A DNA stretch of 43,850 bases from Nitrosomonas sp. (GTDB lineage: Bacteria > Pseudomonadota > Gammaproteobacteria > Burkholderiales > Nitrosomonadaceae), in NCBI RefSeq assembly GCF_022842015.1, contig NZ_JALHQJ010000017.1, positions 1-43,850 on the forward strand. The letters run 5' to 3'. The position numbers and the translations under genes were made by a program. The stretch's first letter is position 1, and each line of letters starts with the position of its first letter. Shown piece after piece: positions 4,899 through 43,640 of the stretch. A model generated the notes under the pieces. The model saw nothing but the letters and a program-made list of their open reading frames with translations, did no database searches and was not told the DNA's origin.

Positions 4899-5213
4899 AT
4901 GAAAATAACATATATTTTAGTAGCAGTATCAGCACTGTTTATCCTTGTCGGTTGTGGCGGAACCGCCAATGACTATAGCCCGCCAGCAGATGCTTCCGGC
5001 GAGAGAATCTTTAGCACTGTCTGCAGTGAATGTCACAAGCCTTTGAGTGCAAACAAGGCAATGATTCTGAGTGAAAAATCTGCCAATAAGGAAGCAATCA
5101 TTAAGAAATTTCAATCAGGCAGCATGCGGATGCCCGCTTTCAAAAATATTCAAGGCGAAGCCGCTGACCGATTGGCCGAATATATTTTAACCAACAGTGA
5201 AGTCCAACAATAA
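4899..5213 (+). CDS. Small monohaem cytochrome c lipoprotein
   Basis: This is a 104-residue exported c-type cytochrome, probably a periplasmic electron carrier anchored by lipid. The signal peptide ends in a lipobox (LVGC, Cys19). A single haem-binding motif CSECH lies at 42-46, and a Met-Pro (Met78) is the likely distal axial ligand. The length fits a minimal class I cytochrome. GGAGCCAGGAA lies just before the ATG. The gene is monocistronic, with a hairpin separating it from the convergent HemN-like gene. The electron-transfer partner cannot be deduced. It is a different protein from the cytochrome at 23344-23814. Confidence 0.8.
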   Translation: MKITYILVAVSALFILVGCGGTANDYSPPADASGERIFSTVCSECHKPLSANKAMILSEKSANKEAIIKKFQSGSMRMPAFKNIQGEAADRLAEYILTNSEVQQ

Positions 5214-5281: not shown

Positions 5282-6664
5282 CTAATGATGTTTACGCAAA
5301 TACTTATCAAAAATTCTACAGATATCGCCGACAAATAATTGCCCCTTCGATGTAACGGCAATCTCCTCATTATCCAAAGCAACTAACCCGGCTTCTGCAT
5401 ACGCCTGTAAATCTGTCAATTCAGTTACAAAGTACTGCTTGAAATCTATCGGAAAAAAAGCTTCTACTGAATCATATGAAATAACCAAATGACAAATCAG
5501 CGCATACATGATTGAACGACGTAACAGGTCATCCGCATTTAATTCTAGACCGCGCAAAATAGGAAGAGTGTTTTGTTCTAACTTATCATAGTACTGTAAT
5601 AGGTCACAATGATTCTGATGTAAAGTCGGGCCTATACGCCCTATTCCTGAAACACCTAATGCAACATGGTCACAATCAGGATGAATTGAAAAACCGCGCA
5701 AGCCATAGTGAAGCCTTCCTTGGCGCTGAGCAACTGCCAGCGGATCATCATGCCTGGCAAAAAGATTCATACCAATATGGCTGTAGCCAGCTTCTGCTAA
5801 GCGAGAAATTGCCAACAGCGTCATTTCATACTTGGTTACTGTTGCAGGTAATCCAGTAAGAATATTATTCCTTTGCGGCTTAAATTCTTCTATAAGATGC
5901 TGATAATTTAAAAGCTTAACCTGATCTGGATCCGCCGCAATAATTTTATCTAGCCTAGAAGCAAATTTATCCAAATCTTTCCCAGTCAATCCATAGCTTA
6001 ATTCTACTCTCACCGACTTAAATCCTGCCCGCCGGATATTGCGGACAGTATGAACGGCAGCTTCTTCAGATTGAATACACTGCTCAGAATGTTGCGCTTG
6101 TTGATCAAAATCTTGAATGCCTACAATTGCACAATTAAATCCCATTTCGTTTAAAGCTCGCATTGAGCAATTGATTAATTGTCGCGTATCAATCTCAACA
6201 CAAAAGTCACCGCCTTCAACTAAGGTAAAATACCGCTTGATCTCTTGGGTAAGAGTATTTAGTTGGGAGTCATTCAAAAATGCCGGACTACCCCCTTCGA
6301 AATATATCTGTTCAACTTTACTATCCCCTTTGAATAATCGCCCTTGAAGCCTTATCTCTCGAAGCAAATAATTCGAATATGTTTCAGTACTGTGATTAGC
6401 AGGGATAAGCTGATTAAGATGGCAATAAAAACATGAGGAGCTGCTATTAGGGGCGTATAAATCTAATGATAAAGGACGACGAAAGCATCCTAATTTTCGA
6501 TTATTTATCCAATCTGAATACTCATACGCATCAGATGCTTCAATCAAATAAGCAGCCCCGGGGTATAAACAACGATCAGATAAGTAATTTCCAAAATCAC
6601 ACATAAGATCCGAATTAATCTCAAGCAAACTTGAAGAAGAATTAGGGAATCGTAATGAATACAC
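5282..6664 (-). CDS. HemN-like protein lacking the first radical-SAM cluster cysteine
   Basis: The 460-residue protein aligns over its whole length with oxygen-independent coproporphyrinogen III oxidase HemN (E. coli 457 aa). Shared stretches include PLSL before the cluster site, GIQDF, YGLT, FARHDDPLAVAQRQGRLH, GVSGIGRIG and the C-terminal VTSKGQLF region. In HemN the 4Fe-4S cluster is held by CxxxCxxC. Here the aligned segment is SSSSCFYC: the second and third cysteines remain (Cys78, Cys81) but the first is Ser74. The SAM-binding GGTP motif is GGSP (124-127). Normal radical-SAM chemistry is therefore doubtful, and a haem-binding or regulatory role is possible. The start is a GTG at 6662-6664 with AGGAA upstream, both inside a hairpin. 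It is divergent from fnr, and Fnr commonly controls hemN. Confidence 0.75.
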   Translation of the reverse strand: MYSLRFPNSSSSLLEINSDLMCDFGNYLSDRCLYPGAAYLIEASDAYEYSDWINNRKLGCFRRPLSLDLYAPNSSSSCFYCHLNQLIPANHSTETYSNYLLREIRLQGRLFKGDSKVEQIYFEGGSPAFLNDSQLNTLTQEIKRYFTLVEGGDFCVEIDTRQLINCSMRALNEMGFNCAIVGIQDFDQQAQHSEQCIQSEEAAVHTVRNIRRAGFKSVRVELSYGLTGKDLDKFASRLDKIIAADPDQVKLLNYQHLIEEFKPQRNNILTGLPATVTKYEMTLLAISRLAEAGYSHIGMNLFARHDDPLAVAQRQGRLHYGLRGFSIHPDCDHVALGVSGIGRIGPTLHQNHCDLLQYYDKLEQNTLPILRGLELNADDLLRRSIMYALICHLVISYDSVEAFFPIDFKQYFVTELTDLQAYAEAGLVALDNEEIAVTSKGQLFVGDICRIFDKYLRKHH

Positions 6665-6834: not shown

Positions 6835-6848
6835 TTGATTAAGATCAA
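6835..6848. promoter_or_regulatory. Perfect Fnr/Anr box in front of fnr
   Basis: TTGAT-TAAG-ATCAA matches the Fnr consensus TTGATNNNNATCAA at every fixed position. It ends 8 bases before the TTG start of fnr, so bound Fnr would sit across or next to the promoter and leader, which suggests autoregulation. It is also about 170 bases upstream of the divergent HemN-like start and could affect that gene. Confidence 0.8.
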
Positions 6849-6856
6849 TCAGAGTA

Positions 6857-7642
6857 TTGATAAATGGGGCCCCATATTTGGAAAATAATTTGTTACACGA
6901 TAGTTCACAACAAAACCTTCTTGATGTTACGCACATTAAATCAAGCTGTGCGACTTGCAGTTTGCGTGAATTATGTCTGCCTGTTGGCCTCAATGACCAA
7001 GAGATTCAGATTCTTGGCGATGTTGTTAGCCATAAACGTAAAGTTCGGCGCGGCGGTTATCTACATCAATCAGGCTTAAAATTCCAATCACTTTTTGCCA
7101 TTCGTAGTGGATTTCTAAAAACCTGCGTCCTTGAAGAAGATGGACGCCAACAAGTTACAGGTTTCCATATGACCGGAGAGCTGCTGGGGCTAGACGCTAT
7201 CAGCTCAGAAATTCATATTTGTGATGCGATAGCGCTTGAAGACAGCGAGGTTTGTGAAATTCCTTTCACCAAACTAGAAGAAATTAGCATTGTTATTCCG
7301 TCGCTTATGCGTCATTTCCATAAAATCATGAGCCGTGAAATAGTACGGGATCATAGCGTAATGTTGTTACTGGGCAGCATGAAAGCAGAAGAACGCTTAG
7401 CATCATTTTTACTTAATTTATCGCGTCGCTTTTCTATGCGCGGTTATTCCGAATCCGATTTTAATTTACGCATGACGCGCGAGGAAATTGGCAGTTATCT
7501 TGGGCTTAAGCTAGAAACAGTCAGTCGTGCATTTTCCAAGCTGCAAGATGAAAATATCATCACCGTAGATAATAAGCACATTCAGATAAATGATATTAAT
7601 CGATTAAAAATGAAAATGGGTAATTCATCCTGCATCACTTAA
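6857..7642 (+). CDS. fnr: Fnr-family oxygen-sensing transcription regulator
   Basis: The product is a CRP/Fnr-family regulator of 261 residues. Cysteines 31, 34 and 40 have the C-x2-C-x5-C spacing of Fnr, and Cys133 in VCEIPF matches the fourth cluster ligand (Cys122 in E. coli), so an oxygen-labile 4Fe-4S sensor is expected. The cyclic-nucleotide-like beta-roll (about 50-150) is followed by a dimer helix and a winged helix-turn-helix. Its recognition helix carries Glu220, Ser223 and Arg224, the Fnr residues that read TTGAT. No ATG or GTG precedes the cysteines in frame. TTG 6857 follows an in-frame stop at 6836 and is the longest option, with later TTGs at 6878 and 6890. A perfect Fnr box lies directly upstream. 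Confidence 0.9.
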   Translation: MINGAPYLENNLLHDSSQQNLLDVTHIKSSCATCSLRELCLPVGLNDQEIQILGDVVSHKRKVRRGGYLHQSGLKFQSLFAIRSGFLKTCVLEEDGRQQVTGFHMTGELLGLDAISSEIHICDAIALEDSEVCEIPFTKLEEISIVIPSLMRHFHKIMSREIVRDHSVMLLLGSMKAEERLASFLLNLSRRFSMRGYSESDFNLRMTREEIGSYLGLKLETVSRAFSKLQDENIITVDNKHIQINDINRLKMKMGNSSCIT

Positions 7643-43334: not shown

Positions 43335-43640
43335 ATTGATGAAGCTGGCCGATAAGCCGGGTTCTGTCGTGGACAGTCATTCCTCTAGTTGCACAGTTAC
43401 CTGTGCACTCAAGCAACCTACCCGCAGGCTCCGCGAGCCACATCATTGCCTGCCTATTTGGTCTTGCTCCGGATGGAGGTTGCCGCGTTTCACCGTAACT
43501 GAATACGCTCGTCTCTGTGGCCCTGTTCCTCACCTCGCGGTGGACGGCCGTTAGCCGTCATCCTGCTCTGTGGAGCCCGGACTTTCCTCCCCCTTGAGTT
43601 CAAAAGAAGAACACAAAGCGGCGACTGTCTGTCCAGCTTC
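43335..43640 (-). ncRNA. rnpB: RNase P RNA, bacterial type A
   Basis: RnpB is the catalytic RNA that removes 5' leaders from pre-tRNAs. Read on the minus strand it begins GAAGCTGGACAGACAGTCGC and contains the conserved GAGGAAAGTCCGGGCTCC element (P4-side CR-I). Further on are CACCGCGAGGTGAGGAACA-like stretches, CCGGAGCAAGACCAAATAGG, GGTAGGTTGCTTGAG and the 3' part ACGACAGAACCCGGCTTATCGG. The ends pair: GAAGCUGG (43633-43640) with CCAGCUUC (43341-43348) forms P1. The length of about 306 is somewhat short for a betaproteobacterial RNase P RNA. The exact 3' end is estimated by alignment to E. coli M1 RNA. Confidence 0.96.

Follow-up and report, generated by a model that had tools for sequence, protein, structure and literature searches.

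Erosion of the catalytic site of HemN in Nitrosomonas, with apparent retention of the fold under purifying selection

The window analysed here is the whole of a 43,850-nucleotide stretch of a Nitrosomonas sp. contig (NZ_JALHQJ010000017.1), in which an orthologue of hemN lies between a small gene for a c-type cytochrome and a divergently oriented fnr. The features of the locus are listed below, with the residue numbers of the canonical enzyme taken from an alignment to E. coli HemN (1OLT).

4899..5213, (+) strand: small c-type cytochrome gene with a CSECH haem site, on the 3' side of hemN
5282..6664, (-) strand: hemN orthologue, 460 aa; eroded catalytic site, kept HemN fold and C-terminal domain
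5696..5707, (-) strand: Y320-G-L-R for R308-N-F-Q (alignment)
6290..6298, (-) strand: E123-G-G for the SAM-binding G111-G-G (alignment)
6416..6418, (-) strand: L83 for the fourth HemN cysteine, C71 (alignment)
6422..6445, (-) strand: S74-S-S-S-C78-F-Y-C81 where CxxxCxxC is expected (codon reading)
6455..6463, (-) strand: D68-L-Y70 for Y56-x-H58 (alignment)
6835..6848, (+) strand: perfect FNR box TTGATTAAGATCAA, in the hemN-fnr gap immediately before the fnr ORF
6857..7642, (+) strand: fnr, divergent neighbour (NF008365, 247.1 bits, cut-off 228)

Elsewhere in the window, positions 43337-43640 (-) encode an RNase P RNA of class A (RF00010, 244.6 bits).

The hemN ORF begins with GTG and runs without an internal stop. 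Codons 72-81 read CCT AAT AGC AGC TCC TCA TGT TTT TAT TGC (PNSSSSCFYC), which places Ser74 where the first cluster cysteine belongs and leaves Cys78 and Cys81, as the earlier note on this DNA had reported. The Ser74 change is part of a wider erosion, and more has been lost than the first cysteine: relative to E. coli HemN, the window protein carries Y56->D68, H58->Y70, F61->N73, C62->S74, C71->L83, G111->E123, R308->Y320, F310->L322 and Q311->R323. Among the four residues named as catalytic in PMC10964404 (Y56, H58, G111 and G113), only G113 is kept; the fourth cysteine, in the same paper, is the mark that separates bacterial HemN from HemW (PMC10964404). Because several independent essential residues are gone, the window protein is, judged from its sequence, almost certainly catalytically dead.

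The family to which this protein belongs is nevertheless recognizable. It scores 334.7 bits on the HemN equivalog model TIGR00538, passing the cut-off of 324.95 by ten bits, and its sequence matches E. coli HemN 1OLT at E 8.1e-73. Its predicted structure (mean pLDDT 79.9, pTM 0.84) likewise finds 1olt in Foldseek (E 7.9e-39, TM 0.86/0.91, 0.86 by query length), with pLDDT below 50 in the loop 74-84 that would be expected to hold the cluster and also at 192-195 and 262-267. The resemblance to HemN/CPDH thus lies in the orthologous locus, the fold, the HemN_C domain and a score just above the cut-off, and the difference in the changes at Cys62, Y56, H58, C71, G111, R308, F310 and Q311; a canonical outgroup HemN (L034), by comparison, scores 605 bits on the same model. 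The earlier note called the gene a paralogue and left room for a canonical hemN elsewhere, but the window gene is the sole HemN match in its own genome and is better termed an orthologue. The next match is a canonical HemW with CxxxCxxCxF, GGGTP and HNMNYW, no second HemN was found, and the oxygen-dependent enzyme HemF is encoded elsewhere in the genome (C64:15514-16389). HemF scores above its cut-off in 81 of 85 Nitrosomonas genomes; among these 85, no match was found in G033 (a 94% complete MAG of the window's trio, described below), G004 or G014, and only a weak one in G107.

A search of the 85 Nitrosomonas genomes, of which the window genome is one (G000), recovered full or nearly full HemN in 46, amounting to 47 sequences since G118, which is 7% contaminated, carries two. 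Five further genomes hold a fragment or remnant (G014, at a contig end, and G026, G010, G114 and G037), and in the other 34 of the 85, some of them incomplete assemblies, no HemN-level match was found, only HemW-level matches or none. Beyond the genus but within the family, at E <= 1e-30, the sole HemN-level match is in G125 (g42), and four g43 genomes have HemW-level matches. Setting aside L029, whose N-terminus is missing at a contig end, 26 of 46 Nitrosomonas sequences keep Y56/H58, the three cysteines and GGG, 17 of 46 have lost at least one cluster cysteine, and three keep the cysteines with Y56/H58 and/or GGG changed. One otherwise Cys-intact gene (L024, from the G028 MAG) contains one or two in-frame TGA codons, which may be errors or a sign of recent decay. 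The eroded sequences group into supported clades, and if loss is taken as irreversible they require at least eight loss events on a tree of HemN, Fnr and the cytochrome and at least seven on a tree of Fnr and the cytochrome, several nodes of these trees having only 45-60% support. Outside the genus, YxHxPFCxxxCxxCxC and RNFQGY are intact at 47 of 47 named loci; these are what is left of the best 80 of 206 loci, in a search seeded with other regions of the protein, once the Nitrosomonas entries are set aside.

The window protein (L001) belongs to a trio with L004 and L005 in which Ser74, Asn73, Tyr70 and Asp68 are common to all members. The nearest two genomes (G030 and G033, 87% protein identity) have the same AGC codon at residue 74, so that the cysteine-to-serine change is fixed among the nearest orthologues beside fnr; residue 75 varies among Ser, Cys and Arg within the trio, with Cys75 in L004. 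Tyr70 and an acidic residue 68 are also common to the trio's sister group (L006, L007 and L072), where the cysteine losses are different ones: C69 in L006, C66 and C69 in L007, and none in L072. L007 is N. ureae Nm13, and its record, like that of Nitrosomonas sp. JL21 (L085), which also carries other cysteine losses, is not marked as a MAG. At the extreme stands clade D, two MAG sequences (L036 and L037, from LK110 and GRE_AOB_2) that lack all three cluster cysteines and yet score 328.6 and 331.3 bits on TIGR00538 against the cut-off of 324.95; the predicted model of a clade D protein has a pLDDT of 85.3. Across the eroded relatives scored, five of seven pass this cut-off and L031 and L060 fail. 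At Y56/H58, L036 and L037 have the tyrosine and histidine swapped (H-x-Y for Y-x-H), and a tyrosine stands at His58 in clade A too.

Some changes run through most of the genus and are older than the losses at the cluster site. The fourth cysteine is carried by 30/30 outgroup sequences and by L034; within the genus it occurs in L021, L076 and L077 only. Tyr320 is found in 25/25 Cys-intact and 17/17 eroded Nitrosomonas sequences, against Arg in 31/31 outgroup sequences; outside the two compared Nitrosomonas sets, the motif reads RNFQ in L082, LNFQ in L084, HHLH in L030 and YSLQ in L020. This pattern at C71 and R308 shows that HemN-specific residues changed early and that the cluster/SAM site was lost later and repeatedly. 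An early loss of HemN-specific residues also means that the Cys-intact sequences used as background below are not necessarily active HemN.

To describe where the changes fall, we took the 59 positions invariant in both the outgroup and Cys-intact Nitrosomonas (L020, L084, L082 and L030 being in neither set) and divided them, by a general list of cluster/SAM residues, into 13 cluster/SAM positions and 46 others. In the 17 eroded sequences, 0.47 of the cluster/SAM cells are changed vs 0.13 of the rest (p=4.9e-6). Some of these positions had themselves served to define the eroded set; with them removed, the five cluster/SAM positions that are left still give 0.44 vs 0.13 (p=0.0019). The direction is the same in clades A, C and D and in the single sequences, but not in clade B (0.05 vs 0.12). 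At the other invariants, 0.29 of the clade A cells are changed as far as residue 270 and 0.01 further on; in clade D the two fractions are 0.10 and 0.00 (p=0.055). Regional omega in clade A drops from 0.57 (N-terminus) to 0.20 (C-terminal domain), but the background drops as well, from 0.26 to 0.08, so the eroded proteins do not stand out in this respect.

Selection after the loss was gauged with a GY94-type branch model implemented in a custom script, with four foreground clades: A (six sequences, including the window's), B (four), C (two) and D (two). Within each of them omega=1 is rejected. The estimates are 0.361 in clade A (2dlnL 116.5 vs 1 and 66.1 vs Cys-intact branches), 0.231 in B (219.6 and 17.5), 0.257 in C (88.0 and 14.6) and 0.118 in D (147.7 and 0.4), the last showing no difference from the Cys-intact branches, for which omega is 0.120-0.134. 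When the tree and the background were changed, A came out at 0.362 and D at 0.118, and Cys-intact foregrounds at 0.103 and 0.155. Fitted alone, the window's trio gives 0.392 (95% CI 0.277-0.520) and the clade D pair 0.134 (0.094-0.177); other pairs or groups give 0.172 (B1), 0.240 (B2) and 0.264 (C), compared with 0.076-0.243 for Cys-intact groups, and the mixed pairs L082/L084 and L018/L020 give 0.367 and 0.178. The neighbouring fnr has omega 0.014-0.124 in the groups where it was fitted, and in clade A vs Cys-intact branches it is relaxed about twofold (0.088 vs 0.043), when hemN is relaxed about threefold (0.361 vs 0.120). The branch on which Cys62 disappeared, the one leading to the trio, has an omega of 0.44 that is indistinguishable from 1 (2dlnL 0.24), and the same is true of the sister group's stem (2dlnL 2.48); a value of 7.4 on the trio stem was discarded as a fit at the bound, which became 0.44 with more species. 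Under neutrality, 41.8 nonsense changes would be expected in clade A, 69.1 in B, 27.9 in C, 19.7 in D and 9.5 in the trio, and no stops were seen in the full-length ORFs of these clades, a comparison that is favoured by the choice of open ORFs and on which the omegas depend less. Loss of catalytic residues with persisting purifying selection, the combination by which a pseudoenzyme is recognized, is accordingly found inside all of clades A-D and is weakest in the window's; retention is best supported in clades D and B and moderately supported in the window's clade.

Fnr was matched at 48 of 52 Nitrosomonas loci; of the four others, three start near a contig end at hemN, and the fourth is the hemN remnant locus L086, where no fnr was found in the stretch fetched. 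The cytochrome c gene was matched at 45 of 52 loci (all but L011, L019, L026, L035, L066, L073 and L074) and is present at all four hemN remnant loci. Among 31 outgroup loci whose HemN is canonical, 17 show this divergent arrangement of hemN and fnr, two have fnr placed differently, and at 12 no fnr was found within the stretch fetched. The pair is thus ancestral, and the adjacency says nothing about a partnership. Beside the hemN remnants L065 and L087 fnr persists, and L067 ends at a contig edge. A perfect box was found upstream of fnr at 39 of 49 loci scanned. We considered this box as a sign that hemN is in use and rejected it as such: it adjoins the start of fnr and so may simply serve fnr, and it is perfect at remnant locus L065 too.

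Several explanations of the eroded gene can be weighed against these observations. That the missing cysteine is a sequencing error or strain-specific mutation is refuted by the serine codon common to three genomes and by the other cysteine losses of Nm13 and JL21. A regulatory partnership with the adjacent Fnr, as the earlier note proposed, would fit the divergent gene order and the FNR box that separates the two genes; the same pairing with canonical HemN, the persistence of fnr beside two remnants and the position of the box, which may serve fnr alone, leave this proposal unsupported and most improbable. Another of its suggestions, that the protein uses a different cluster ligand, would leave it a radical-SAM enzyme whose third ligand is Ser74 or a cysteine elsewhere, such as Cys75 of L004. 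Serine-ligated clusters are known in principle, and the window's trio has kept C78 and C81. Against such an enzyme, the trio has lost Y56, H58 and F61 and the window protein G111 as well, sister species have lost C66 or C69, residue 75 is variable within the trio, and the model, with pLDDT below 50 throughout loop 74-84, predicts no ordered site; we regard a substitute ligand as very unlikely, though a shade less so than the Fnr partnership.

The chief rival is slow decay, whereby hemN, not needed beside hemF in an aerobic ammonia oxidizer, loses its catalytic residues first and disappears as a gene afterwards; on this view the window's gene is headed the same way and serves no lasting purpose. 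The near-universal HemF, the remnants in G026, G010, G114 and G037, the 34 of 85 genomes without a HemN-level match, the threefold elevation of omega in the window's clade and a trio stem compatible with omega 1 are all as decay would have them. Opposed to decay are an omega below 1 inside every eroded clade, values like those of intact genes (0.118-0.134) in the cysteine-free clade D, the lack of stops where neutrality predicts about 10 to 70, and the kept C-terminal invariants of clade A. These data bear out the view in the earlier note that a full-length gene of this kind is not simply decaying, and we hold decay to be a serious but clearly less probable account. On the sequence evidence we lean, by somewhat more than an even judgement, towards a retained and folded, non-enzymatic HemN orthologue, a pseudoenzyme with a non-catalytic function.

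The course of the erosion can be read from the sequences, whereas what the protein does now can be sketched only conditionally. Early in the genus C71 was lost, along with R308 and F310 except in the L082/L084 branch, and the new residues Y320, E221 and I390 were fixed; the [4Fe-4S]/SAM site was then lost at least seven to eight times, with purifying selection continuing inside the four eroded clades. With oxygen-dependent HemF at hand the HemN reaction may have become dispensable, though the lack of a HemF match in G033, of the window's own trio, and in G004 and G014 tells against this account. The protein may bind a tetrapyrrole (haem or coproporphyrin/porphyrinogen), which it would buffer or pass on. 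Ammonia oxidation leans heavily on multihaem cytochromes. A role in haem or porphyrin handling, akin to the haem chaperone-like relative that the earlier note had in mind, is a tentative suggestion drawn by analogy, and we would not call it probable; it is the simplest use of a cluster-free HemN fold because HemW binds haem without its cluster (PMC10320005) and because CgdH2 (Cj0363c) of Campylobacter jejuni, a HemN-family protein without CPDH activity, binds haem and is a carrier (PMC10320005). HemW requires its cluster to transfer haem, however, according to the same source (PMC10320005), and by this analogy the requirement counts against a carrier role.

None of the known relatives is an exact counterpart. 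HemW (TIGR00539) is likewise a HemN-like protein without the fourth cysteine and offers a possible mode of action, but it keeps its own cluster, whereas the window protein lacks the full motif and scores 69.8 bits against a cut-off of 205.4. The haem motif of HemW, HNxxYW (PMC10320005), was not found in the window protein, where the region reads HYGLRGF in an ambiguous HemW register; MAFFT and a profile alignment, for which the HemW reading frame was obtained at 13 of 14 loci, disagree on how Tyr320 stands to the HemW haem ligand His250. CgdH2 differs in that its cluster motif is intact and it falls with MenK (PMC10320005), the window protein being a HemN orthologue with the motif lost. PsgB (TIGR04419, 'HemN-related non-iron pseudo-SAM protein') is by its model name a cluster-free HemN relative, but the window protein scores 15.0 bits on it against a cut-off of 300; it does not belong to the PsgB family and is of independent origin inside true HemN.

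The NCBI cut-off would give the window protein, L036 and L037 alike the name oxygen-independent coproporphyrinogen III oxidase, almost certainly in error. Among the matches listed in the literature on Nitrosomonas hemN and on radical-SAM pseudoenzymes, titles and abstract openings yielded no published account of HemN erosion in Nitrosomonas. If the constraint holds, the genus would present repeated, independent cases in which the same radical-SAM enzyme became a cluster-free protein, and such replicate conversions would make a non-catalytic role of the HemN fold directly testable. It is possible, though less likely than not, that an early Nitrosomonas HemN ceased to act as a coproporphyrinogen oxidase and became a haem or porphyrin handler marked by Tyr320 and its companion residues and that the unneeded cluster was then shed at least seven to eight times. 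Were this true, Nitrosomonas would hold a natural replicate series in which radical-SAM proteins have become cluster-free binding proteins.
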